Positions 6,562-43,209 of a stretch of DNA of 64,000 nt are shown in pieces. The stretch's first letter is position 1; each line of letters starts with the position of its first letter. Made by a program: the position numbers and the translations under genes. A model generated the notes under the pieces. That model saw only the letters and a program-made list of their open reading frames with translations, made no database searches and was not told the DNA's origin. The stretch is from Hyphomicrobiales bacterium (lineage in GTDB: Bacteria > Pseudomonadota > Alphaproteobacteria > Rhizobiales > RI-29), in assembly GCA_016125495.1 (NCBI GenBank), contig WGLQ01000007.1, forward strand, positions 186,001-250,000, in the 5' to 3' direction.

Positions 6562-8127
6562 CTACCAGGGCATTGCCAGTGCCTCGAGGCCCTCGTACGT
6601 GGTGCCGGTTTCGGCATCGACCTCGATCAACCGCACACGGTAACCCCAGAGCCGCGCCACGTGCGCCAGTACACGCTCGGCCTCCTTGCGCTCGAGGCGT
6701 TTGCCATCGCGAACGACGTGCTTCAGCACCAGCCGGCGACTGCCTTTGAGGTTGGCTTCCACGACCTGGATGTCCGGGTCCTGGTGGCCGGGATCGTACT
6801 GGCGCGCCAGTGCCCGGCGGACATCGCGATAGCCCTCTTCTTCGTGGATCGCATCGACCCGCATGAAGGTGCTGGTCGTGTCGTCCGAGAGCGCGAACAT
6901 GCGGAAGTCGCGGATCACCTTCGGGCTGAGGTACTGCAGCACGAAGCTCTCGTCACGATAGTCCGCCCACGCACTACGCAGCGTTGCGAGCGCGTCCCCG
7001 TTGCCGGCGATGCCCGGGAACCAGTCGCGGTCCTCCGCCGTCGGCTCCTCGCAGATGCGCTGGATGTCGCGCATCATGGCAAAGCCGAGAGCATAGGGGT
7101 TTATGCCGGAAAAACGCCGGTCGTCGAAATCGGGCTGCGTGACGACCGAGGAATGCGAGTGCAGGAATTCGAGGATCGAGCCTTCCCCGATCCGCCCGGC
7201 CTCGTAGAGCCGGTTGAGGATCTCGTAGTGCACGAACGTCGCGCACCCCTCGTTCATCAGCTTGGTCTGGCGCTGCGGATAGAAATACTGGGCGTTGCGC
7301 CGCACGATCGCGATGAGTTCGCGCTGCCAGTTCTCGAGCTTGGGCGCAAAGCGCTCGAGGAACAGCAAGAGGTTTTCCTCCGGAAGTCCGAGTTCCGGCC
7401 CGTCTCCCCCGTTCTCGGAATCGGCCTCCTCGACCGGCTCGCCGGACGGCTTCTTGGGCACCGTCCGCCAAAGATCGTTGTATGTCGCCTCCTCGTGCAC
7501 GGCGCGTGCACGGGCCTTGCCGGCGGCATCGCGTTCGTCGCGCTGGCGGCTCGGCGCATAGCGGCTGACGCCATGGCGCATCAGCGCGTGCGCCGCGTCC
7601 AGAACCGACTCCACCGCATCGATGCCGTAGCGGTCCTCGCAGTGTTGCACGAAGCGCTTGGCGTGCGCGAGTTCGTCGAGCACGGTGTCGGCATCGGTCC
7701 ACTGCTTGAAGAGGTAGTTGTTCTTGAAGAAGTGGTTGTGGCCGAAGGCGGCGTGCGCGATCACCAGCGCCTGCATGGTGATGGTGTTCTCTTCCATCAC
7801 GTAGCAGACACAAGGGTTGGAGTTGATGACGAGTTCGTAGGCGAGAGCCTGCGCTCCCTTGCGATAAAGCGTCTCCTCTCGCACGAAATGCTTGCCGAAC
7901 GACCAGTGCCGGTACATCAGCGGCATGCCGACGGAAGCATAGGCGTCCAGCATCTGCTCGGCCGTGATCACCTCGATCTGGTTGCGATAGACGTCGAGCC
8001 CGAGTTCGCCGAGCGCGACCTCCTCGATGCCGTCGTGCACCCGTCGCAGGAGGTCGAAATTCCACTCCGCCCCCTCGAAGAGGAGGCCCGCGCCCCGGCC
8101 GCCGGCCGGCCCCGCCTTCGCCGTCAT
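6562..8127 (-). CDS. spoVR: SpoVR-family protein (YcgB-like)
   Basis: Cytoplasmic SpoVR/YcgB-family protein of 521 residues. Bacillus SpoVR acts in spore cortex formation; in non-sporulating proteobacteria the role is unclear, but the gene is linked to prkA and yeaH. Family blocks visible are WNFDLLRRVHDGIEEVA near the start, MPLMYRHWSFGKHF, ELVINSNPCVCYVMEENT, HAAFGHNHFFKNN, and later MNEGCATFVHYEILNRL and YALGFAMMRDIQRICEEP. The start at 8127 is fixed by an ATGA overlap with the stop of yeaH; the open frame upstream lies inside yeaH and has no family sequence. It is the last gene of prkA-yeaH-spoVR and ends about 70 nt from the convergent terminator at 6457-6493. Confidence 0.95.
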   Translation of the reverse strand: MTAKAGPAGGRGAGLLFEGAEWNFDLLRRVHDGIEEVALGELGLDVYRNQIEVITAEQMLDAYASVGMPLMYRHWSFGKHFVREETLYRKGAQALAYELVINSNPCVCYVMEENTITMQALVIAHAAFGHNHFFKNNYLFKQWTDADTVLDELAHAKRFVQHCEDRYGIDAVESVLDAAHALMRHGVSRYAPSRQRDERDAAGKARARAVHEEATYNDLWRTVPKKPSGEPVEEADSENGGDGPELGLPEENLLLFLERFAPKLENWQRELIAIVRRNAQYFYPQRQTKLMNEGCATFVHYEILNRLYEAGRIGEGSILEFLHSHSSVVTQPDFDDRRFSGINPYALGFAMMRDIQRICEEPTAEDRDWFPGIAGNGDALATLRSAWADYRDESFVLQYLSPKVIRDFRMFALSDDTTSTFMRVDAIHEEEGYRDVRRALARQYDPGHQDPDIQVVEANLKGSRRLVLKHVVRDGKRLERKEAERVLAHVARLWGYRVRLIEVDAETGTTYEGLEALAMPW

Positions 8128-9422
8128 TTCGCCCCTCCCTTGCGCTCGCTGGCCTCGGCGGACGTGAACAGTTCGCGGAACACCGGATAGATATCCTCCG
8201 GTCGCATCACCTGGCGCATTGCGAAGTGGCGCTGACGCGCGAGCAGCCGCTGGTAACCGGTCCACAGAACGCTGTCGGATGGGACCGAGGCGAATGTCGA
8301 GTCGCCGACCTCGATGTAGGCGAAATACTGCACCATGCCCATGATCTCGTTCTCGATCATTTCCGTGCAGCGCGCCATGTCGTCGGTGAAATTGTGACCG
8401 TCAGAGGCCTGCGCAGCGTAGATGTTCCAGTCGTCGACCGGGTAGCGTTGCTGAACGATCCGGATCATCTCCTCGAGCGCGCTCGAGACAACGGTGCCAC
8501 CCGTTGCCCGACCATGAAAGAAGGTCTCCTCGTCGACCTCTTGCGCGCTCGTCGTGTGGCGGATGAAAACGACATCGACCTCGCGGTAGTGCCGCGCGAG
8601 AAAGACGTGCAGGAGCATGAAGAAGCGCTTGGCGAGGTCCTTGAGGTCCTGCGTCATCGAGGCCGAGGCGTCCATCAGGCAGAACATCACCGCCTGCGCC
8701 GTCGGCCGGGGCTTGCGATCGAAGCGGTTGTAGCGGATGTCGATCGGATCGAGATAGGCGACCGCGCGCATGCGAATGCGCATCCGCTCGAGCTCGGCGC
8801 GCAGGGCCGTGACGACCGCCTCGTCGCCACGCGCCTCCGCCTCCTTGATCTCGGCCTCGAGTCTTGCCATCTGGTGTCCGCGCGGCCGCGCCAGCGCGAT
8901 GCGCCGGGCAAGGCTGCGCCGCATCGTCTCGACCTTGTTCAGCCTGACCGGCGAGCCCTCCGTGGAAAAACCCGCCCGGGCCCGCAGCGGTGAGGCCTCC
9001 TTCTTCAGCTTCTGCTTGGCGAGATTGGGCAGCGCCAGGTCCTCGAAGAAGATGTCGAGGAATTCCTCGCGCGTCAGCGTGAAGGCGAATGCGTCCTCGC
9101 CTTCCCCATCGGGCGAGCCTTCGCGACCCGACTTGCCCTCGCCGCGCGGCGGCTTCCTGATGTGGTCACCGGGACGGAAATCGCTGTTGCCGGGCAGCAC
9201 GTGCTCGCGCTTTCCCGTTCCACGATCGTGATTGAAGGCCGGTTCTCGTACGTCGCGCCCGGAGATGGAAATCTGCTCGGCGCCTTCGACATCGGAGATC
9301 TTGCGCCGCTTCAGCGCCTCGTGCACCGCCTCGCGGATGTGAGCCTTGGCCCGGCGCATGAACCGTTGCCGATTGCCGAGGCTCTTGGATTTCGGATTGA
9401 GGCGCCGGTCGACGATGTGCAT
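8124..9422 (-). CDS. yeaH: YeaH/YhbH family (DUF444) protein with VWA-like domain
   Basis: 432-residue DUF444 protein. It starts with the family sequence MHIVDRRLNPKSKSLGNRQR, followed by a charged, Gly-rich linker (HDRGTGKREHVLPGN to about residue 110). The C-terminal half carries a von Willebrand A-like fold with a MIDAS-type DASASMT after VMFCLM, and the later conserved GGTVVSSALEEM and NIYAAQASDGHNF. In E. coli the homologue is cotranscribed with the kinase gene yeaG (prkA) and responds to nutrient stress. Here it sits between prkA (102 nt upstream) and spoVR (4 nt overlap), the same three-gene order. Its biochemical role is not established. Confidence 0.95.
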   Translation of the reverse strand: MHIVDRRLNPKSKSLGNRQRFMRRAKAHIREAVHEALKRRKISDVEGAEQISISGRDVREPAFNHDRGTGKREHVLPGNSDFRPGDHIRKPPRGEGKSGREGSPDGEGEDAFAFTLTREEFLDIFFEDLALPNLAKQKLKKEASPLRARAGFSTEGSPVRLNKVETMRRSLARRIALARPRGHQMARLEAEIKEAEARGDEAVVTALRAELERMRIRMRAVAYLDPIDIRYNRFDRKPRPTAQAVMFCLMDASASMTQDLKDLAKRFFMLLHVFLARHYREVDVVFIRHTTSAQEVDEETFFHGRATGGTVVSSALEEMIRIVQQRYPVDDWNIYAAQASDGHNFTDDMARCTEMIENEIMGMVQYFAYIEVGDSTFASVPSDSVLWTGYQRLLARQRHFAMRQVMRPEDIYPVFRELFTSAEASERKGGAK

Positions 9423-9524
9423 CGCCTGTTTCTTTCCTTGTCGGGAGCGGCAGCCGAGGTTGCCGCCCGGCCCACGGCCGAATGTTCCGGCGCCCGGATG
9501 CGGCGGGTCGAGCCCGCCGCCCCG

Positions 9525-11471
9525 TCAACCGGCCTTGCTGACCCGCATGTACCACTCCACCAGCCTGCGGACCTGACGTTCGGTGTAGCCGCGCGCCACC
9601 ATGCGCGAGACGAATTCGCCGTGCTTTTGCTCCGCGTCGCTGTCGGCCTTGGCGCCGAAGCTGATGACCGGCAGGAGATCTTCCACCTGACTGAACATCC
9701 GCTTCTCGATGACGTCGCGGATTTTCTCATAGGACGTCCACGACGGGTTGCGCCCGTTGTTCTTGGCCCGTGCCCGGAGCGCGAACTTGACCACCTCGTA
9801 GCGGAAGTCCTTCGGGTTCGCGATCGATGCCGCACGCTCGATCTTGGCGAGTTCGTCGGCCAGCACGTCGCGGCTCATCAGCTGACCGGTGTCGGGGTCC
9901 TTGAAATCCTGATCCTCGATCCAGGCATCGGCATAGGCGACGTAGCGGTCGAAGAGGTTCTGGCCATAGTTGTGGTAGCTCTCGAGGTAGGCCTTCTGCA
10001 CCTCGTTGCCGACGAACTCGGCATAGCGCGGCGCCAATTCCTCCTTGATGAACTCGAGATAGCGCTGCTCCATCTCCTCCGAAAGCTGCTCGCGTTTGAC
10101 GGCCTGCTCGAGCACGTACATGAGATGCACCGGGTCTGCCGCCACCTCGCTGCTGTCGAAGTTGAACGTCTCCGACAGGATCTTGAAGGCGAAGCGCGTC
10201 GAGATTCCGTCCATTCCCTCCGTCACGCCGGCGGTGTCGCGATACTCCTGGATGCTCTTGGCATGCGGGTCGGTGTCCTTGAGGCTCTCGCCGTCGTAGA
10301 CCCGCATCTTGGAATAGAGCGAGGAATTCTCGTGCTCCTTGAGGCGCGTCAGGACGGAAAACCGGGCCAGCATTCCGAGCGTGTCCGGTGCGCAGGGCGC
10401 ATCCGTCAGCTCGCTGTTCCTCAGCAGCTTTCGGTAGATCTGCGTCTCCTCACTCACCCGCAGGCAATAGGGCACCTTGACCACGCAAATGCGGTCGAGG
10501 AAGGCCTCGTTCGTGCGGTTCGACTTGAAGCTCTGCCACTCGCTCTCGTTGGAGTGGGCGATGATGATGCCGTTGTAGGGCATCGCGCCGACGTTCTCCG
10601 TGCCGACGTAATTTCCGTCTTGCGTCGCCGTAAGGAGCGGATGCAGCATCTTGATCGGCGCCTTGAACATCTCGACGAATTCCAGGAGCCCCTGCGTCGT
10701 GCGATTGAGCCCGCCCGAGTAGGAATACGCATCGGCATCGTCTTGGCCGAAAAACTCCAGCTTGCGGATGTCGACCTTTCCGACGAGAGCGGAAATGTCC
10801 TGGTTGTTCTCGTCGCCCGGCTCGGTCTTTGCGATGCACACCTGACGCAGCTTCGACGGCACGACGCGAACCACCGAGAATTTGGAGATATCTCCCCCGA
10901 ACTCGTCGAGCCGTTTGACCGCCCAAGGCGACATGTGGCCCGGCAGCGCTCGCAGCGGGATGCCGTAACGCTCCTGCAGCATCGGCGCCATGGTCTGGCG
11001 GTCGAACAGCCCGAGCGGGCTCTCGAAGATCGGGCTCACCTCGTCGCCGGCCGCCAGCACATAGACCGGGTGGCGCTGCATCAGCTCCTTCAGTCGCTCG
11101 GCGAGTGACGATTTGCCGCCACCGACCGGTCCGAGGAGGTAGAGGATCTGCTTGCGCTCCTCGAGCCCCTGCGCGGCATGGCGGAAATAACCGACGACCC
11201 GTTCGATCGTCTCCTCGAGGCCGAAGAAGTCGCTGAAAGTCGGATAGACCTTGACCGTGCGGTTCATGAAGATCCGACCGAGACGCGGGTCCTTGGCGGT
11301 ATCGACGAATTCGGGCTCGCCGATCGCGCGCACCATCCGCTCTGCCGCGCTCGCATAGAAGGATGGATCCTCCCTGCACGCCTCGAGATAGTCCTTCAGC
11401 GAGTAAGCGACCTTCTTTTCGCGGTCGTAGGCTTCCGTGAAGAGGTCGAAGACATCCTTTTGGTCAGTCAT
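9525..11471 (-). CDS. prkA: PrkA-family serine protein kinase / AAA ATPase
   Basis: 648-residue PrkA/YeaG. The N-terminal AAA-like domain has a Walker A P-loop at residues 114-121 (GPVGGGKS) after LEERKQILYLL, and the PrkA-specific KRLDEFGGD and FIKEELAPRYAEFVGN blocks. The C-terminal PrkA kinase-like domain is complete (DFRYEVVKFALRARAKN, then SWTSYEKIRDVIEKRMF). The ATG at 11471 has AGGTGAG just upstream. E. coli YeaG takes part in adaptation to nitrogen starvation; Bacillus PrkA is involved in sporulation control. It is the first gene of the operon, behind a 900 nt gene-free region; I looked for a GGAAC-type EcfG general-stress promoter upstream and did not find a convincing one. Confidence 0.96.
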   Translation of the reverse strand: MTDQKDVFDLFTEAYDREKKVAYSLKDYLEACREDPSFYASAAERMVRAIGEPEFVDTAKDPRLGRIFMNRTVKVYPTFSDFFGLEETIERVVGYFRHAAQGLEERKQILYLLGPVGGGKSSLAERLKELMQRHPVYVLAAGDEVSPIFESPLGLFDRQTMAPMLQERYGIPLRALPGHMSPWAVKRLDEFGGDISKFSVVRVVPSKLRQVCIAKTEPGDENNQDISALVGKVDIRKLEFFGQDDADAYSYSGGLNRTTQGLLEFVEMFKAPIKMLHPLLTATQDGNYVGTENVGAMPYNGIIIAHSNESEWQSFKSNRTNEAFLDRICVVKVPYCLRVSEETQIYRKLLRNSELTDAPCAPDTLGMLARFSVLTRLKEHENSSLYSKMRVYDGESLKDTDPHAKSIQEYRDTAGVTEGMDGISTRFAFKILSETFNFDSSEVAADPVHLMYVLEQAVKREQLSEEMEQRYLEFIKEELAPRYAEFVGNEVQKAYLESYHNYGQNLFDRYVAYADAWIEDQDFKDPDTGQLMSRDVLADELAKIERAASIANPKDFRYEVVKFALRARAKNNGRNPSWTSYEKIRDVIEKRMFSQVEDLLPVISFGAKADSDAEQKHGEFVSRMVARGYTERQVRRLVEWYMRVSKAG

Positions 11472-12385
11472 GGCTCACCTGTCAGCTCCCTGCTTCGGCC
11501 AAGCCGCCGGAGACCAGGCTCCGGACCGCTACGCCGCCTGACGTCCTCTGCGCCCGGGCGAGGCCCCCGCCCTGGGGTGATCGCCTGCCCACGCCATCTC
11601 GTCCTCCACCTCCACCGAACGACCGATACATCCGAAAACAGCGAGTTGCGTGCCCTTCCACTTGGTCTCGAAACCACCGCCGGGGGCACACCCAGCATAT
11701 GCGAGCAACATCTCGCGCGGACAACCTATCGGTCAATCAACCAGTCAGGAAGAATACTTGCGAACCACTGTGGTCAACTTATGACCGGAATGGTGAAAAA
11801 TCTGGAAGTGGCTGTGAAATCTGACATATACTAGCCGTTGCCGTCCGAAGCATCGAACAGCCTGCCCCTTCCAGCGAGGGCGCGTCCCGATGGAGTGTAA
11901 AGGGGTTCCCGGTGGGAAACCACATCCGTTGCTCCACGCGCTCGATATGGTGATGCTCGAGAGTGGCATCAATGTCGCAGTGGGGTGGCAATTTGCCTTG
12001 CTATCGTGGTCGATGGGCACGATTACCGCCCCACGCACGGCAATTCACCGCGCCGAGTCATGCGGCTCCACGGCGATTCGCCATGCGCGCCGCCGCCACA
12101 TCGCCACACCGTCTCGCACGATGTCACAATACGTTGAAGTGAGACCTTGTCGCGCACCCTCATGGTCGCCATGTCCTCACATGATGGCCGTAGATCGCAC
12201 CCTGCTTCGGCTTGCCTCTGATCCGGAACATGTATTTCGCGCCTGAACGCGTGTTGTAGCAACGTGACAGGCGGCTTGCCCGATCACCCGCAGGGGCGCA
12301 TTTCAACCCTCGGGATTTGCACGCGGCGGCCGATTGCGGCACAATGCCCGCAATTGTGGGTTGCAGCGTGGTTGGAGTACGAGTC
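11472..12385. other. Long gene-free region between divergent prkA and the 12386 gene
   Basis: About 910 nt separating two divergent transcription units. The part near 11700-11850 is distinctly lower in GC than the surroundings, as expected for regulatory DNA. No tRNA, rRNA or recognisable riboswitch was seen. A 118-codon frame at 11890-12246 has no ribosome-binding site and no recognisable features. It must contain at least the prkA operon promoter. Confidence 0.5.
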
Positions 12386-14110
12386 ATGGGTTGGCTGTTC
12401 CGCCTGCTGCTGGTTTCAGGGCTCGCCCTCACCGGCTATCAGCTGGCCACGAGTTGGCTGGCCCCTGATGTCGGCGAACCCTCGGCCGGCAGCGGCTCGA
12501 GTGGTGGCGATAGCTTGGCAACCGTCGCCGACGAGATTGACGCGGCGCTGCGTGCGCCGCGAGCGTTCTCGGGCAACGCCCCCCTCTTTGCTGGCCCCGC
12601 GCCCGAACCCGTAGAACCGCCGCCACTGCCCGCCCGCGCGCCCTCGAAGGGCTCGGAGCGGTCCGACTTGGCGCAGGAAACCTTCGCTCCGGCGCCATCC
12701 GGTGCGGACGGCGCGGCAGCCCGTCAGTCCCGAGGCTTGGCGGCCGCCGATGGCGAAACGCGCAAGGCAGCGATCGACGAGGCCGAGGTCCAGTCCGAAG
12801 CGCTCGATGACGCCACCGGTCTCGCGCATGCCACGACAGACCATGCCACAGGCGCCGGCGATGCTCGGGGACACGTCACCACGACGGCCGCCGGTCAGTT
12901 GTCGACGCCGGCGCCACCACCCGCGGATGAAGGTCGCTTCACGTTGGCCGGGCTGCTTTCTTGGTTCGAGAGCGGTCTGACCGGTGCCGCCCCCGGCGAT
13001 GATGCCGATTCCACGCGCCGCGAGGGGCCGATCGGCGGGCAGGGCACGGATCGTTCCAATGCGGTGGCCGAGGGAGAAAGCGCCGACACCACGACCCGAG
13101 GTTCCGCCACCGAGGTGGCGCGGGCGCGGGACGTCGTGGAGTCCGCGGTGCCGCCCCCGCCCACCCCTGCGGCCGTTGCCTCGAGCTCCCCGCGACAGCC
13201 GAGCCTCGAGACGACCGTCGAAGTCCCGACGCGCACGCCGAACGAGGACCCGATTGCCGAACTCATCCGGCGTCAGACAGAGGCGGCCCGCCGCCGTGCC
13301 GCCGAAGGGACCGTGCTGGCCGAAACCGAGGCCACGGGCGCCATGCCGCTGCCCTCTCAGAACCGCATTCGCTTGGCACGCGCGACCGGTGGGCAGGTCG
13401 TCCTTCGAGCGGACGGCGGATCGAGGCGAGAACCTGCCGCCGGGACCACCACCCTGGCCAAGGCTCTTGAGACGGAGGACACCCTGGTTCGCCTGCCGCT
13501 CGCCCATTTGCCTGTGCCCGCGGCCGAGCATCGCCACCAGTTGGCGCTCCTGGGCGAACCCGCAGCCGATGATTTGCCGGACGATGGTGCCTATGGCGAT
13601 GAGGAAGAGGCGTTCCTCTTTGCCGATGGCGATGACGCGCGCGGCCTGCAAGGCCCCGGTTCTCGCGGCCCCTTGCGTGAATTCGACGAGGAGAATACGC
13701 GCCGCCTCCACGAATGGGAGCAAATCCGCCGCCAGCGCGCGGCAGCCGAGGAGCGGCGCATAGCCGCCGCTCTGCGAAGAGCCGGCTCCGGCGACGACTG
13801 GCAGAGCGCTCCGGCAGCGACGGTCGATCGGCGCACCGGTGAGGCGGCCCGCTCCCTCCTGGCCGATGCCGAGCAGCCCGTTTCGCGACCGGCCGCCCGG
13901 CGCTCGAACATCAGCGAAGGCGAGGCGCGCCGGATCGCGGCCGTGCGCAAGGCCATCGCCGCACGCGAGGCCCGCAAGCGCGCCTGGGGTCAGCGCTATG
14001 GGCTCGGCGCCGTGCGCGCCGTCCGCGCCAACCAGACGCAGCGCGCCAAGCGCGTTCGGGCCCGCAGGGCCTGGGTGACCCGCGTCTTCACACCCAGGGG
14101 CGATCGGTGA
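12386..14110 (+). CDS. Membrane-anchored low-complexity protein, unknown function
   Basis: 574 residues; I do not recognise the family. The start at 12386 gives a single N-terminal hydrophobic segment (MGWLFRLLLVSGLALTGYQL) that looks like a signal anchor, with GGAG about 10 nt upstream. The rest is predicted disordered: Ala/Pro/Gly/Thr-rich to about residue 300, then a charged Arg/Glu-rich region (EENTRRLHEWEQIRRQRAAA) likely to be helical or coiled coil, and a strongly basic tail (KRVRARRAWVTRVF). The opposite strand is also open over nearly the same span, so strand choice rests on the anchor, the start site and the balanced charged composition. It precedes the pseudo-ABC exporter by 315 nt on the same strand. 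Confidence 0.62.
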   Translation: MGWLFRLLLVSGLALTGYQLATSWLAPDVGEPSAGSGSSGGDSLATVADEIDAALRAPRAFSGNAPLFAGPAPEPVEPPPLPARAPSKGSERSDLAQETFAPAPSGADGAAARQSRGLAAADGETRKAAIDEAEVQSEALDDATGLAHATTDHATGAGDARGHVTTTAAGQLSTPAPPPADEGRFTLAGLLSWFESGLTGAAPGDDADSTRREGPIGGQGTDRSNAVAEGESADTTTRGSATEVARARDVVESAVPPPPTPAAVASSSPRQPSLETTVEVPTRTPNEDPIAELIRRQTEAARRRAAEGTVLAETEATGAMPLPSQNRIRLARATGGQVVLRADGGSRREPAAGTTTLAKALETEDTLVRLPLAHLPVPAAEHRHQLALLGEPAADDLPDDGAYGDEEEAFLFADGDDARGLQGPGSRGPLREFDEENTRRLHEWEQIRRQRAAAEERRIAAALRRAGSGDDWQSAPAATVDRRTGEAARSLLADAEQPVSRPAARRSNISEGEARRIAAVRKAIAAREARKRAWGQRYGLGAVRAVRANQTQRAKRVRARRAWVTRVFTPRGDR

Positions 14111-14425
14111 AAGGCCGACAGACCGAACCTGCTCGAAGTTTGGCCATCGCAACCCGCGCGCTCGGAGCACCCGACCGCCAGCACGTGACTTGAGGGCAGC
14201 CTTACGGCAACGGCCTCACCGCTCGACGCCGTGTGCTGGCCAACCCCGGACACGCATCGCCCCACACCGCGACTTAACAGCTTCCTTCCGAGGCGATAGA
14301 GTTTCCCCGGCGTCAGAACCGCAACCGACCGTCGCCCTGAGGCAGGGGCGTTGGATCGGGCTCTGACGGTTGGCCGTGCGATCCGCCGCAGCATTGCGGC
14401 GGATGCGGTTGGGGGACGGCTTGCC
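14111..14425. other. Intergenic region before the ABC exporter gene
   Basis: 315 nt between two plus-strand genes. No hairpin followed by a T run and no clear -35/-10 pair was seen. A G-rich stretch (GGGGGAC) just before 14426 can act as the ribosome-binding site. Confidence 0.45.
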
Positions 14426-17182
14426 ATGGAACGCAATCTATTTCGCTACGTCTGGACGAACACGCGGCGCGAGCAACTCTGGATCCTGGCGGTCGTGCTG
14501 CTGGCCATGCCCGTCTATTTCCTCTCGCTCGATCTGCCAAAGCGGATCGTCAACGGACCGATCCAGGGCGCCGGCTTCGACTCGTACGACACCACCCAGA
14601 CTTGGCTGCGCATCGAGCTGCCGGACTGGCTCGGCGGCTTCGAATTGTTCGGGGGCTTCCAGCTGACACGCCTCGAGATGCTCGTCGCGCTCAGCCTGAT
14701 GTTCCTGTCCCTCGTCTGCGTCAATGGACTTTTCAAGTTCTACATCAACACCTTCAAGGGTCGCCTCGGAGAGCGGATGCTGCGCCGTCTGCGCTTCGAA
14801 CTGCTCGACCGCCTGCTCCGCTTTCCGCTTCCCCATTTCCGGCGTGTGAAGCCGCCGGAAGTCGCCACCATGATCAAGGACGAGGTCGAGCCGCTCGGCG
14901 GCTTCATCGGCGATGCCTTCGTCCAGCCGATCTTCCTCGGCGGTCAGGCGATCACCGCCATGCTGTTCATCATCGTCCAGAGCTTCTGGTTGGGCATGAT
15001 GGCGGCCTTCATCGTCCTCGTTCAGGCGTTCCTCATCCCGCGCCTGCGGCGCCGCCTGATCGAACTCGGCAAGCAGCGTCAGCTCACCGCCCGCATGCTC
15101 GCCGGCCGCGTCGGCGAGGTCGTGGACGGCATCACGGAGGTGCGCACCAACGACACCTCCAACTACGAGCGGGCGCAGATCTCCAGCCTGCTCGGCCGCA
15201 TATTCGCGATCCGCTTCGAGCTCTACCAGCGCAAGTTCTTCATCAAGTTCCTGAACAACTTCCTCGCCCAGATCACCCCCTTCCTCTTCTACCTCGTCGG
15301 CGGCTATTTCGCCCTGCGCGGCCAACTCGACATCGGCCAGCTCGTCGCCGTGATCGCCGCCTACAAGGACCTTCCGAGCCCCATCAAGGAATTGATCGAC
15401 TGGGACCAGCAGCGCATCGACGTGCAGGTCAAGTACATCCAGGTGATCGACCAGTTCGACGTCCAGAACACCATGGCGCCGGAACTCCAGGCCCCGATCG
15501 CCACGCCGCCGCTGCGCCTGAAGGGCCCCGTCGAAGCGAACGCGGTCGCGATCAGCGACGACACAGGCGCCAAATTGCTCGAAGGTGTGACCTTCACGTT
15601 CGCACCGGGTGAACAGGTCGCGGCTCTCGGCGACGTCAACGCGGGGGCCGAGACCACCGCCGAAGCCCTCGCGCGCCTGGTCCCGCTCACCTCGGGTCGC
15701 ATCCGCATCGCCGACAAGCGGCTGGACGATTTGCCGGAAGCCCTGACCGGGCGCCGCATCGCCTATCTCGGGCCGGAAACCTATCTGCCCAACACCTCGC
15801 TCGAAAGCGCCCTCCTCTACGGACTGCGCCATGTCCCGATCGTCCCGCACGTGCGAAGCGAAAGCGAGGCCGCTACTCATGCCGCAGCCGCCGCCGAGAG
15901 TCGCCGCGCCGGCAATATCGACCTCGACGTCGAAGCCGATTGGATCGACTACGAAGCCGCCGGCATCGCGGGACCCGAGGCCATCCGCGATCGCCTCCTC
16001 GAGGTTCTCGCCACCGCCGATCTCGGGCAGGACGTCTTCGACCTCGGGCTGCGCGGCCAACTGACGGCCAAAGCCGCCGAACACGCTTCGCCCCGCGTCC
16101 TCGCGGCGCGGGCAGCCCTCGCACGCCGCCTCGCCTCGTCCGATATGGCCGACCTCGTCGAGCCCTTCGATCCCGCAAGTTACTCCAAGGAAGCGACAAT
16201 CGGCGAGAACCTGCTGTTCGGCACAGCGCTCTCCAATTCCTTCGCACCCGCCGAGTTGTCCGCCAATCAGACCCTGCTCGCGATCCTCGAGGCACACGGC
16301 CTCGACGAACGGCTCTACCTCGTCGGCCGCAACATCGCCGAGACCGTCGTCGAACTGTTCGCCGACCTCCCGCCCGGGACGCCGTTCTTCGAGCAGCTCA
16401 CCTTCATGACGGCCGACGATATCCCGGCTTACGCTTCACTTCTCCAGCGGGTGCAGCCACTCGAGTACCGCGACGTATCGCAATCCCGGCGCGCGCGCCT
16501 GCGCCATCTCGCGCTCGCCTACATCGAGCCGCGCCATCGCCTTGGCCTCCTCGACGCCCAGCTCGAGCGCGAAATCATCGAGGCGCGCGGCGACATCCGC
16601 GATCGGCTCGCCGCCCTTCCCGGGCGCAACGTCGCTTTCTACGATCCCGAAGCCTACAACATCGGCGCCTCGCTCGAGGACAACATCCTCTTCGGCCGCG
16701 TTCGCTACGGCATTGCGGAAGGGCCGCGGCGCGTGCGTCAAGCGATCGCCGAGATCCTGGACGAGCTGGGGATGCGCGACGTCGTGTTCGATGCCGGGCT
16801 GTCGTTCGAAGTCGGCAGCGGCGGCAAACGTCTCACCCAGCAGCAGCGCCAGAAGCTCGCCCTTGCCCGCGCACTCCTGAAGCGGCCCGATCTGCTGATC
16901 GTCAACCGTGCCTTTGCCTCCTTCAGCGTCGCCGGCCAGCGCCAGATCGCGGATCGCGTTGTCGCGCTCGGGCGCGCGAGCGGACCACCAGCGCCCGACG
17001 GGGCCACCGGCCCGGATGAGCCCGCGAGCGGCTTTTCGACCTTCTGGGTGCTGTCCAACCCGAGCCTGACGGAGGCTTTCGACCGGGTTCTGCTGTTCGG
17101 GGAAGGTCGCGTACTCGAGCAGGGCACGCCGCAGGAGCTCAAGTCGCGCAAGGAGAGCCGTTATGCCAAGATGCTGGCATGA
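14426..17182 (+). CDS. ABC exporter-like protein with catalytically dead, expanded nucleotide-binding domain
   Basis: 918 residues from the ATG at 14426. Residues 1-340 form an ABCB-type exporter membrane domain: hydrophobic segments at about 20-35, 85-107, 170-205 and 283-313, and the usual cytoplasmic sequence ITEVRTNDTSNYERA. The nucleotide-binding part is odd. Walker A reads LGDVNAGAET (401-410), without GKS/T. Walker B reads LLIVNRAF, lacking Asp and catalytic Glu. The H-loop position reads VLSNPSL, without His. Only the signature-like SGGKRLTQQQRQKLALARAL is well kept. About 390 residues separate Walker A from the signature (normally about 100), and the NILFG-type motif after the Q-loop occurs three times (near 459-466, 592-599 and 750-757). 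A cNMP-binding gene follows 56 nt later. Probably a non-hydrolysing regulator or scaffold. Confidence 0.85.
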   Translation: MERNLFRYVWTNTRREQLWILAVVLLAMPVYFLSLDLPKRIVNGPIQGAGFDSYDTTQTWLRIELPDWLGGFELFGGFQLTRLEMLVALSLMFLSLVCVNGLFKFYINTFKGRLGERMLRRLRFELLDRLLRFPLPHFRRVKPPEVATMIKDEVEPLGGFIGDAFVQPIFLGGQAITAMLFIIVQSFWLGMMAAFIVLVQAFLIPRLRRRLIELGKQRQLTARMLAGRVGEVVDGITEVRTNDTSNYERAQISSLLGRIFAIRFELYQRKFFIKFLNNFLAQITPFLFYLVGGYFALRGQLDIGQLVAVIAAYKDLPSPIKELIDWDQQRIDVQVKYIQVIDQFDVQNTMAPELQAPIATPPLRLKGPVEANAVAISDDTGAKLLEGVTFTFAPGEQVAALGDVNAGAETTAEALARLVPLTSGRIRIADKRLDDLPEALTGRRIAYLGPETYLPNTSLESALLYGLRHVPIVPHVRSESEAATHAAAAAESRRAGNIDLDVEADWIDYEAAGIAGPEAIRDRLLEVLATADLGQDVFDLGLRGQLTAKAAEHASPRVLAARAALARRLASSDMADLVEPFDPASYSKEATIGENLLFGTALSNSFAPAELSANQTLLAILEAHGLDERLYLVGRNIAETVVELFADLPPGTPFFEQLTFMTADDIPAYASLLQRVQPLEYRDVSQSRRARLRHLALAYIEPRHRLGLLDAQLEREIIEARGDIRDRLAALPGRNVAFYDPEAYNIGASLEDNILFGRVRYGIAEGPRRVRQAIAEILDELGMRDVVFDAGLSFEVGSGGKRLTQQQRQKLALARALLKRPDLLIVNRAFASFSVAGQRQIADRVVALGRASGPPAPDGATGPDEPASGFSTFWVLSNPSLTEAFDRVLLFGEGRVLEQGTPQELKSRKESRYAKMLA

Positions 17183-17238: not shown

Positions 17239-17706
17239 ATGAGCATCCTGGACGACGTTTCGATGCTGCGCCGCATCCCCCTCTTCGCGCAGATCGACAC
17301 CGGCAAGCTGAAGCTGCTCGCCTTCTCCTCCGAACGGCTGCAGTACTCGGTCGGCCAGTCGCTCTTTCGCCAGGGTGAGGAAGCCGATCACGCCTACGTC
17401 GTGGTCGATGGCTCGGCCGACGTCATCGTCGAAACACCAGCCGGTCCGGTCACCGTCGCCATGATCCAGCGCAATGCCCTCGTCGGTGAGATAGGCCTGC
17501 TCTGCGATGTCGGGCGCACAGCGACGATCACGGCCCGCGAACCGCTCACGGTGCTGAAAATCTCCAAGGAGCATTTTCTCAAGCTGCTCGAGGAATCGCC
17601 CTCGACCGCGCGCGGCGTCATGCGTGAGCTGGCCCAGCGCCTCGCCGATACCACGGCCGAACTGACGAATGCCCGTAACCGCCTGCGCGAATTGGGCGCG
17701 GCATGA
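17239..17706 (+). CDS. Free-standing cyclic-nucleotide-binding domain protein
   Basis: 155 residues made almost entirely of one Crp-type cNMP-binding domain. The phosphate-binding cassette is intact: VGEIGLL (82-88) and GRTATITA (92-99), with the Gly-Glu and Arg-Thr-Ala that contact the ligand in this family. The beta-roll start QSLFRQGEEADHAYVVVDG is clear. After the domain there is only a helix (RELAQRLADTTAELTNARNR) and no helix-turn-helix, so this is not a DNA-binding Crp/Fnr regulator. It follows the pseudo-ABC gene by 56 nt and should be cotranscribed. By position it may be the cNMP-sensing partner of that membrane protein; whether it binds cAMP or cGMP cannot be read from sequence. Confidence 0.92.
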   Translation: MSILDDVSMLRRIPLFAQIDTGKLKLLAFSSERLQYSVGQSLFRQGEEADHAYVVVDGSADVIVETPAGPVTVAMIQRNALVGEIGLLCDVGRTATITAREPLTVLKISKEHFLKLLEESPSTARGVMRELAQRLADTTAELTNARNRLRELGAA

Positions 17707-41496: not shown

Positions 41497-43209
41497 ATGT
41501 ACGTGCTCGCTCGCGGTGGATGGCTACAACGGTTGCGCCTGACCGCCGGTCTCGTTCTGTTCACTTTCGTGTTCATGCATTTGCTCAATCATGCCGTGGT
41601 CCTCTTCGGTCTGAGCATGGCCGAGAGCGTGCAGGAATGGCGTCTCGCCGTCACCCGATCGATCCCCGGTACGCTGGTGCTCTGCGCGGCGGCCCTCGTC
41701 CATGTCGTCCTCGGCCTCTTCAAGACGGCACGCCGCAGCACGCTGCGCATGCCGGCCTGGGAATTGCTGCAGATCTTGAGCGGCCTGGCCGTGCCCTTCC
41801 TCGTTGCCCCCCATCTGACCTATTCCCGCGTCGCCCACGAGTTGTTCGGCGTCTCGACCACCTATCTCTACCAGCTCTACTTGATCTGGCCTGCCGTCGC
41901 CTGGTCGCAGGCGCTACTGCTCGTTGTCGTCTGGACACACGCCTCGATCGGCATCCATTTCTGGCTCCGCCTGACACGGACCTACGAGCGACTCTTTCCG
42001 TTCGCCCTCGCCGTCGCCGTCGCAATCCCGGTCGGCGCGCTTGCCGGTCTCGTTGCCGGCGGCCGCGCCGCGCGCGAGCTGATCTACGACGAGGAGAGCT
42101 TTGCCGAACTGCGCGAGGAGGTGAACTGGCCATCGGGCGAAGCGTTCGGGGAACTGAGCCGGTTTTCCGAGGTTTTCCAGTTCGCGAGCATCGCCATTGT
42201 ACTCACGGTCGTCGTCGTCATCGCCGGCCGCTACCTGCGCCATCTCCTCGGCCCCCGCGTCGAGGTCCGTTACGTCGGCGGCCCGGTGGTCCAGGCACCG
42301 ATCGGGGCGACGCTGCTCGAGACCAGCCGGCGCTTCGGCGTCCCGCACGCCTCCGTCTGTGGTGGCCGCGCCCGCTGTTCGACCTGCCGCGTCCTGGTCG
42401 AGGAAGGTTTCGATGGGCTCCCCCAGCCCGGCCCGACCGAGAACGAGACCTTGCGCAGCATCGGCTCTCCCGACCGCGTCCGCCTCGCCTGCCAGATCCG
42501 GCCGCGCTCACCCGTCACCGTCGCGCGGCTGCTGCCGGCCGGCAGCCGCCTGCGGGCGGCCAGTTCACCCCAGTCGCGCGAGGAGCAGGGCGTCGAGCGC
42601 TCCCTGGCGGTGATGTTCCTCGACGTGCGCGGCTTCACGACCTTGAGCGAACGGCGTCTACCCTACGACACGGTCTATCTGCTGAACGAACTGTTTTCTT
42701 CCGCGGGTGGCGCGATCGTCGCCCACAACGGCTGGATCGACAAGTATCTCGGTGACGGGCTCATGGCCATTTTCGGCCGTGAGAGCGGCACCACGGCCGG
42801 CTGCCGGGAGGCGCTCGCGGCCGCGCGCGCCATCGACCTCGCGCTCGATCTCCTCAACGACCGCTTCAGTGGCGAACTTGCCGAGCCGCTGCGCATCGGC
42901 ATCGGCATTCACGTCGGGCCCGTCGTCCTCGGGCGCCTCGGCCACCCCGCCTCCTCGGCCGTCACCGTCATCGGCAAGACCGTGAACGCGGCGAGCCGCC
43001 TCGAGGCGCTGACCAAGGAATTCGGCTGCCAGATCGTCGTCTCGAACGCGCTCGCCGCCCGCACCAGCCTCGTCACGGACGGCCTCGAACACCGCACGAC
43101 CGAGGTGCGCGGCCTCAGCGACACCCTCGACGTCCTGCTCATCCCCAAGGGCCGCCAGATCCAATTGCGCGACGATACCCCCGCCGAGACCGCAGAAGCC
43201 GCCGGCTGA
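41497..43209 (+). CDS. cyaC: CyaC-like class III adenylate cyclase with SDH-type membrane anchor and 2Fe-2S domain
   Basis: 570 residues in three parts. Residues 1-245 are a six-helix membrane anchor with His at 28, 32, 69, 106, 114, 148 and 154, resembling the cytochrome b anchor of succinate dehydrogenase. Residues 250-345 are a plant-type ferredoxin domain with Cys288, Cys294, Cys297 and Cys332. Residues 365-560 are a class III cyclase: metal Asp376 (FLDVRGFTTLSER) and Asp420 (KYLGDGLMAIFG), and the transition-state Asn497 and Arg501 (GKTVNAASRLEAL). This matches CyaC of Sinorhizobium meliloti, reported as a quinone-responsive adenylate cyclase with a di-haem-B anchor. It probably turns respiratory redox state into cAMP. 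Divergent from the carboxylase gene. Confidence 0.9.
   Translation: MYVLARGGWLQRLRLTAGLVLFTFVFMHLLNHAVVLFGLSMAESVQEWRLAVTRSIPGTLVLCAAALVHVVLGLFKTARRSTLRMPAWELLQILSGLAVPFLVAPHLTYSRVAHELFGVSTTYLYQLYLIWPAVAWSQALLLVVVWTHASIGIHFWLRLTRTYERLFPFALAVAVAIPVGALAGLVAGGRAARELIYDEESFAELREEVNWPSGEAFGELSRFSEVFQFASIAIVLTVVVVIAGRYLRHLLGPRVEVRYVGGPVVQAPIGATLLETSRRFGVPHASVCGGRARCSTCRVLVEEGFDGLPQPGPTENETLRSIGSPDRVRLACQIRPRSPVTVARLLPAGSRLRAASSPQSREEQGVERSLAVMFLDVRGFTTLSERRLPYDTVYLLNELFSSAGGAIVAHNGWIDKYLGDGLMAIFGRESGTTAGCREALAAARAIDLALDLLNDRFSGELAEPLRIGIGIHVGPVVLGRLGHPASSAVTVIGKTVNAASRLEALTKEFGCQIVVSNALAARTSLVTDGLEHRTTEVRGLSDTLDVLLIPKGRQIQLRDDTPAETAEAAG

Follow-up and report, generated by a model that had tools for sequence, protein, structure and literature searches.

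We analyzed a gene for an ATP-binding cassette (ABC) exporter-like protein in a 64,000-nucleotide stretch of a Hyphomicrobiales bacterium genome (contig WGLQ01000007.1; the whole stretch is called the window here). The host genome comprises 4.05 Mb in 36 contigs and is 99.35% complete. Our best explanation, which is tentative and to which we assign a probability of roughly 45%, is that the gene encodes a cyclic AMP (cAMP)-controlled, ATP-independent membrane protein built on an exporter fold, working with the cyclic nucleotide monophosphate (cNMP)-binding protein encoded by the next gene. The absence of ATPase activity, the dimer, the identity of the ligand, docking, gating, and the substrate and energy source are all things that we infer. 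A preliminary description of this DNA had proposed a receptor or scaffold made from an exporter. The derivation from an exporter stands, but the rest is too general in view of the usual partner, a cNMP domain, and of relatives that lack the ATPase domain. The features concerned are as follows, with residue numbers referring to the ABC-like protein.

14426 to 17182, + strand: open reading frame of the ABC-exporter-like gene with a degenerate and enlarged ATPase domain, 918 amino acids (Pfam PF00664, E = 5e-15; PF00005, E = 6.7e-10)
14426 to 15457, + strand: membrane half, residues 1 to 344, with motifs of its own that are common to ATPase-less relatives
15503 to 15850, + strand: first part of the ABC ATPase fold, residues 360 to 475 (AlphaFold2 model and structural alignment; borders approximate)
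15629 to 15652, + strand: altered Walker A, GDVNAGAE, residues 402 to 409
15761 to 15826, + strand: repeat piece 1, residues 446 to 467, with the altered Q-loop Pro450
15851 to 16765, + strand: extra stretch in the ATPase domain, residues 476 to 780 (borders set by us)
16154 to 16222, + strand: repeat piece 2, residues 577 to 599, ending ATIGENLLFG
16628 to 16696, + strand: repeat piece 3, residues 735 to 757, ending ASLEDNILFG
16766 to 17179, + strand: second part of the ABC ATPase fold, residues 781 to 918 (AlphaFold2 model and structural alignment)
16832 to 16846, + strand: partly kept signature, LTQQQ, residues 803 to 807
16892 to 16909, + strand: altered Walker B, LLIVNR, residues 823 to 828
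17054 to 17056, + strand: H-loop position, Ser877 in place of His
17239 to 17706, + strand: stand-alone cNMP-binding protein, 155 amino acids (Pfam PF00027, E = 3.2e-19)
41497 to 43209, + strand: CyaC-type adenylate cyclase with a hydrophobic N terminus, a 2Fe-2S domain, and a class III cyclase domain

The reading frame extends from the ATG at 14426 to a stop ending at 17182. An in-frame TTG at 14351 would lengthen the protein by 25 codons, and the start at 14426 agrees with the relatives. The exporter membrane domain was recognized by Pfam in the membrane half, and the PF00005 match in the ATPase half (about residues 360 to 918) was split into two stretches. The best sequence match in the PDB was a lipid A flippase (E = 3.5e-20). 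No NCBIfam model reached its cutoff among the matches listed (25 of 118), and an anti-phage library gave 0 matches for the protein.

Each ATP-site motif was altered. As the preliminary description had stated, Walker A lacks GKS/T (the Lys is gone and a Glu stands at the Ser/Thr position), Walker B lacks its Asp and Glu (Asn827 and Arg828 instead), and the H-loop lacks its His. None of the consensus elements (Walker A GxxGxGK[S/T], Walker B Asp plus Glu, and H-loop His) was found in the chain, for which the intact exporters of the same genome served as the control. In addition, the Q-loop Gln is replaced by Pro450, an alteration absent from that description. The signature, described earlier as kept, is so only in part: it reads LTQQQ rather than the consensus LSGGQ and is largely lost. 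Walker A and the signature lie 401 residues apart (402 to 803), not about 390, and the distance is, as claimed, far above the normal one (104, 104, and 109 residues in three intact exporters of the same genome). When checked as an exporter with one degenerate site, this chain itself supplied no consensus Walker site or signature, although a distant partner gene might provide one.

The motifs were then compared across 136 nonredundant relatives, a set from which six partial, frameshifted, or membrane-half-only entries (loci L036, L065, L079, L117, L190, and L191) had first been removed and from which rows at least 80% identical to a kept row had been dropped (170 to 136). Loci L129 to L131 were kept among the 136 and excluded from the mean identities and site-change counts. 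All five catalytic residues (Walker A Lys and Ser/Thr, Walker B Asp and Glu, and H-loop His) were found together in a single relative, L156, so that homologs with a full catalytic set, raised beforehand as a possible objection, amounted to 1 of 136. Taken singly, the Lys was present in 53, the Ser/Thr in 17, the Asp in 33, the Glu in 47, and the His in 25. At the signature, 128 relatives had the Leu, 60 the Ser, 14 and 18 the two Gly residues, and 110 the Gln. Eight such sites had changed 9 to 31 times each on a tree built from the membrane half only (133 rows), and thus the catalytic constraint seems to have been relaxed many times. An ordinary exporter with sequencing errors was ruled out, since the motifs are altered family-wide.

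The clade containing the window protein (27 members; support, 99) differed in this respect. Gly was present at position 407 in 27 members, an acidic residue at 409 in 27, Asn at 827 in 26, and Arg or Lys at 828 in 24. The steadiness of the substituted residues across the clade shows an apparently fixed, different pocket rather than drift. The question of whether the altered motifs are conserved therefore has two answers: they are so at these four positions within the clade, where variation is small, whereas across the class the wide variation that had been named as a danger to the earlier interpretation is present.

The ATPase domain contains about 305 extra residues. The NILFG-type piece occurs three times in the protein, and the three segments containing it resembled one another beyond chance in one-against-one profile comparisons (E = 3.4e-7, 4.4e-13, and 8.6e-7), which supports the suggestion that part of the domain was duplicated. 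In the AlphaFold2 model, each repeat segment has the same pattern of strand, short helix, and strand, and much of the added length can be accounted for by a predicted tandem repeat of the Q-loop/helical piece. The extra stretch also carries invariant residues of its own (Trp506, Asp508, Phe645, and Arg705 in 28 relatives). Searched alone, residues 476 to 780 gave no Pfam or PDB sequence match, although they may still adopt a known fold. The models, built from the window and related loci only, had a mean predicted local distance difference test score of 82.8 for the whole protein and 87.5 for residues 341 to 918. The model of residues 341 to 918 matched exporter ATPase domains over their full length; for the ComA ATPase domain, 239 of 239 residues were aligned at a root mean square deviation of 1.9 (Z = 29.8). 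Thus, the ABC ATPase fold is predicted to be intact and interrupted by the roughly 305 residues, which answers the structural check proposed in the preliminary description.

The gene is widespread in the alphaproteobacteria. Of the genomes sampled, 29 of 61 in the order and 97 of 289 in the class had a match at E values of at most 1e-50 (the host genome included in both). In the phylum, 32 of 398 genomes matched at an E value of 1e-40; the only one outside the class matched by the membrane half alone. A scan of named genomes yielded 29 loci, including relatives of Ensifer, Shinella, and Rhizobium and one Chromatiaceae bin (L065); L066 was judged not to be a family member. Matches also occurred in 262 plasmid records, mainly from Rhizobium and Sinorhizobium, and pSymB of Sinorhizobium meliloti 2011 was among the matches of a second plasmid search. 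Mean pairwise identity was 0.51 in the membrane half versus 0.34 to 0.36 in the ATPase domain (133 rows). In L129, L130, and L131, on a very long tree branch, the enlarged dead ATPase domain stands on a different or very divergent membrane half.

A decaying gene whose ATPase half has no function would fit the wide variation of the catalytic sites across the class; even so, we consider it extremely improbable. The ratio of nonsynonymous to synonymous substitution rates was 0.01 to 0.28 across all four regions in eight close pairs of relatives, with values of 0.02 to 0.28 in the ATPase parts and the insert (the window gene itself having no sufficiently close pair). These estimates show apparent purifying selection on all four regions in each of the eight pairs, and a simple pseudogene was ruled out on this basis. 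The invariant insert positions also speak against decay, as do frames that are open in nearly all matches: internal stops were found in 1 of the 97 class genomes with a match and in 0 of 30 matches in the order, so the many frameshifted copies feared earlier were rare. Given this selection and the matches in 97 of 289 genomes, the gene is conserved and not decayed, in agreement with the earlier remark that an open frame of 918 codons is not simple decay. Conservation, substitution ratios, the clade pocket, and the predicted fold together favor a functional exporter-derived protein without the normal ATP-site residues.

The 155-residue protein encoded next to the ABC-like gene has a PF00027 domain, and its sequence matches were kinase and CRP chains. 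Pfam found no DNA-binding domain in it at E values up to 1. Its phosphate-binding cassette, which we take to be defined by a Glu and an Arg, is present (Glu84 and Arg93). Over 114 rows, near copies included, the cassette had Gly in 114, Glu in 102 (Asp in 10), and Arg in 112. In the anti-phage library this protein matched Pycsar effector models, which we read as probably reflecting the shared cNMP domain. The partner was counted in relatives that had a fused form or whose downstream sequence reached 600 bases, fusions being verified by a frame check. Of all 121 such relatives, 95 had a cNMP domain encoded by the next gene and 19 had it fused to the C terminus; 6 lacked it, and L079 was unclear. 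Among the nonredundant ones, 83 of 89 had it (68 in the next gene and 15 fused) and 6 did not. The fused part was called a cNMP domain by our own profile, with Pfam support for L106 only. Because the same two parts occur both as adjacent genes and as fusions, these arrangements point to a probable physical unit.

An exporter that is still driven by ATP, through an unorthodox pocket or as a heterodimer with an ordinary half, would need the cNMP protein only as a regulator. This arrangement would resemble HetC of Nostoc, in which an exporter with an essential ATPase residue is joined to a cNMP domain, as here (PMC10986499). We regard this alternative as improbable, although partial motifs persist in many relatives, with all five residues in L156, and heterodimeric exporters that work often have degenerate sites (PMC7756269). 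In a heterodimer, both composite sites would include an altered element of this chain (Walker A/B or LTQQQ). The search for a partner half-exporter covered neighboring genes: Pfam found none around L040, L045, and L046, and none is named in the annotation of one Azospirillum locus and two Rhizobium loci. The adjacent ATPase in Azospirillum belongs to the peptide-importer type. HetC also differs (PMC10986499) in its peptidase domain and in an N-terminal cNMP domain that binds guanosine tetraphosphate (ppGpp), so such a domain need not bind cAMP or cyclic GMP. In the ABC-like protein, no peptidase family was found by Pfam at E values up to 1, and the ATPase residues are lost.

A possible source of the nucleotide is the cyclase at 41497 to 43209. 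Its 2Fe-2S and class III cyclase domains were identified by Pfam (PF00111, E = 7.6e-7; PF00211, E = 4.1e-17), and its N-terminal 200 residues look hydrophobic, where the CyaC type has a six-helix di-heme-B anchor. This domain plan likens it to CyaC of S. meliloti, which has a membrane anchor, a 2Fe-2S domain, and a class III cyclase and responds to the quinone redox state; the partners described for CyaC are Clr and CycR, and the term "ABC transporter" is absent from the main text (PMC10463352). In L038, L040, and L048, a 2Fe-2S/class III cyclase gene directly follows the cNMP gene (Pfam having been run on the one in L040), and the window carries a relative (41% over 554 residues).

The two genes also co-occurred. 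Among the 289 genomes, 74 had both, 23 the ABC-like gene only, 5 the cyclase only, and 187 neither, which gives an odds ratio of 120 when genomes are counted as independent and shared ancestry is ignored. A Pfam-identified photolyase gene of the window served as a control; its odds ratio was 1.5 when paired with the ABC-like gene (P = 0.16) and 1.9 when paired with the cyclase (P = 0.02). When only the 89 genomes that carry the photolyase and reach 3 Mb were considered, the corresponding counts for the ABC-like gene and the cyclase were 49, 9, 4, and 27 (odds ratio, 37). By taxonomic family code, 45 families had both genes, and 7 and 4 had one. Both genes lay on one contig in at least 12 genomes; in 7 of the 12 tabulated, they were within 30 kb of each other, three of these seven being from one genus.

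The membrane half, described earlier as a normal ABCB type, proved not to be one, because it has conserved motifs of its own (LPKxIxN, EVEPLGG, NNFxxQxTPFxFYxxGGY, and AYKDLxxPxKEL) that are common to ATPase-less relatives and absent from five ordinary exporters of the genome. Polar residues in its membrane helices are strongly conserved, and the loop between the first two helices has 35 residues, which we take to be long for an exporter. The ATPase-less relatives, found in some genomes and plasmids, have 381 to 497 residues and match the membrane half only. They were 32 to 37% identical to the window membrane half and 45 to 47% identical to their nearest full-length relative, versus 17 to 20% to ordinary exporters. 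In a tree without ordinary exporters, one branch (support, 100) parted the ATPase-less from the full-length forms.

Among ten closer ATPase-less loci (L192 to L195, L216 to L220, and L234), the stand-alone membrane halves of eight (L192 to L194 and L216 to L220) adjoin multicopper oxidase, CopB, or cupredoxin genes, a biased share since five of the eight came from a search with a copper-cluster protein as the query. The contig of L195 is too short to show its neighbors, and around L234 neither the L193 nor the L217 copper proteins found a match. The plasmid search for copper clusters matched 373 records, and five annotated ones among the 30 listed were examined; two of these proteins are named "ABC transporter ATP-binding protein" and the other three "ABC transporter transmembrane domain-containing protein." A second, more distant ATPase-less group comprises 13 loci (L221 to L233) of 314 to 400 residues, of which L222 seems broken. 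Ordinary ATPase domains were present somewhere in 4 of the 14 fetched stretches with ATPase-less relatives, and thus a partner is possible for some of these forms. As reported previously, MsbA reduced to its membrane half transported ethidium by means of a proton gradient (PMC4979069), so an ATP-independent membrane half is possible. The existence of ATPase-less relatives lends plausibility to a membrane half that works in this family.

On these grounds, the cAMP-controlled protein might work as follows. Two chains would pair into an exporter-like dimer, in which the ATPase domains no longer bind or split ATP normally and instead hold the dimer together and form a platform, enlarged by the repeats of the Q-loop/helical piece. 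The cNMP-binding protein, from the next gene or fused in some lineages, would dock on this platform. With a rise in cAMP or a related nucleotide, probably produced by a CyaC-type redox-sensing cyclase, the docked protein would switch the membrane half, which would then open or move its substrate without ATP. A broader claim, that bacteria possess an ABC-derived cyclic-nucleotide-gated transporter or channel and that the same membrane fold works without an ATPase domain in copper-resistance clusters, seems to us rather unlikely on what is available now.

Several observations weigh against the ATP-independent, cAMP-controlled protein. The full set of five catalytic residues persists in L156 and some of them in many relatives; parts of the family may therefore still bind ATP. 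No cNMP gene lies adjacent in L081, L085, and L087 or next door in L129 to L131. Only 3 of 34 long loci have the cyclase next door, in the window a distance of 24 kb separates it from the ABC-like gene, and the co-occurrence counts disregard common descent. When ordinary exporters were added to the tree as an outgroup, the supports were 25 and 62; the ATPase-less forms may either have lost the ATPase domain or have branched off earlier, so they need not show that the membrane half of this family works alone. Loci L221 to L233 gave no match to the copper proteins searched, and no neighbor recurred in more than four of them. Finally, a charge swap between Walker A and Walker B in the dead pocket (an acidic 409 paired with a non-Asp 827, and loss of the basic 408 paired with a basic 828) was striking in raw counts but is not claimed here, because independent pairs gave no support.

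Of the loci without an adjacent cNMP gene, L081, L085, and L087 have partly intact motifs, with GKT in the Walker A of L085 and L087. Loss of the cNMP partner and retention of the ATP pocket may be linked in these three.

A different role, that of a receptor or scaffold without transport, has to be considered in the light of the neighboring genes. The membrane half would then anchor or sense (a lipid, quinone, or glycan, for example), while the dead ATPase and cNMP domains would relay the signal or organize a complex with neighboring glycosyltransferases. Of the 34 loci that exceed 8 kb, 30 contain homologs of each of the three L040 glycosyltransferase genes (the first of these genes resembles the third, and each may match homologs of the other), and 24 contain an oligopeptide-importer permease. 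These loci, drawn toward relatives of the window, include two nonfamily ones, L066 and L102, the latter fetched for its glycosyltransferases. Rhizobium etli CIAT 652 calls the genes at two glycosyltransferase-cluster positions redA and redB, which likewise suits such a complex. Homologs of two of the L040 glycosyltransferases also occur in the window genome, on another contig. The window pair, however, does not lie beside them, and the five annotated copper clusters had no glycosyltransferase neighbors of the ATPase-less relatives. The conserved polar residues in the membrane helices suit a pathway as well as an anchor. We think a role without transport rather unlikely. The gene surroundings hint at a possible glycan or glycopeptide pathway.

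Within these surroundings, L102 (contig C2 of the window genome) carries four glycosyltransferases, a metallophosphatase, a peptide-importer ATPase, and an FkbM methyltransferase, together with a 175-residue cNMP-like frame and a 1,252-residue frame that combines 2Fe-2S and pyridine nucleotide oxidoreductase domains. In L105 (R. etli CIAT 652 plasmid pA), redA (membrane-anchored protein) and redB (glycosyltransferase protein) are upstream of the ABC-like gene and cyoABCD is downstream; no literature on redA/redB of R. etli was found. Upstream of the ABC-like gene in the window, positions 12317 to 14170 hold two long overlapping frames on opposite strands (597 and 584 codons), and the + strand one gave 0 Pfam matches at E values up to 1. 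Genes for a PrkA kinase, DUF444, and SpoVR stand in a row (Pfam) at 6562 to 11471 on the - strand.

The ABC-like protein shares its domain order and the fold of both halves with the type IV (ABCB-type) exporters MsbA, TmrAB, and ComA/PCAT. It differs from them in that all ATP-site motifs are altered, about 305 residues with repeats are added, the first loop has 35 residues, and the membrane half has motifs of its own. CFTR and SUR likewise put the exporter fold to non-pump use under cellular control, while keeping ATP binding, and they are not known to be controlled by a cNMP-binding partner. SUR chains were among the structural matches of the model of residues 341 to 918, and the kinship is known here at the superfamily level only. 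Exporters with one degenerate site (TM287/288, TmrAB, TAP, and MRP1) carry an altered Walker B Glu, H-loop, and signature (PMC7756269). They share these alterations with the ABC-like protein and keep one full site, whereas the ABC-like protein has also lost the Walker A Lys and Ser/Thr and the Walker B Asp. Judged mostly from search results, with subscription journals set aside, the literature searched showed no account of this family or of a cNMP-coupled dead ABC exporter in alphaproteobacteria. Nor did the search results reveal work on ABC membrane halves that stand without an ATPase domain in copper clusters.

Hydrolysis of ATP is what defines an ABC exporter. If the cAMP-controlled protein proposed here is real, it would illustrate the way in which a pump turns into a regulated effector: catalytic residues are lost, the fold is kept, repeats are added, and a second-messenger sensor is paired with it. 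The CyaC-type cAMP signal would gain a membrane target other than a transcription factor. Annotation of such proteins as ATP-binding transporters misleads, as with the two of five copper-cluster proteins so named without an ATPase domain. The copper-cluster relatives offer a small, directly testable model of a lone exporter membrane half. The findings suggest that many alphaproteobacteria may control a membrane protein by a second messenger rather than by ATP.

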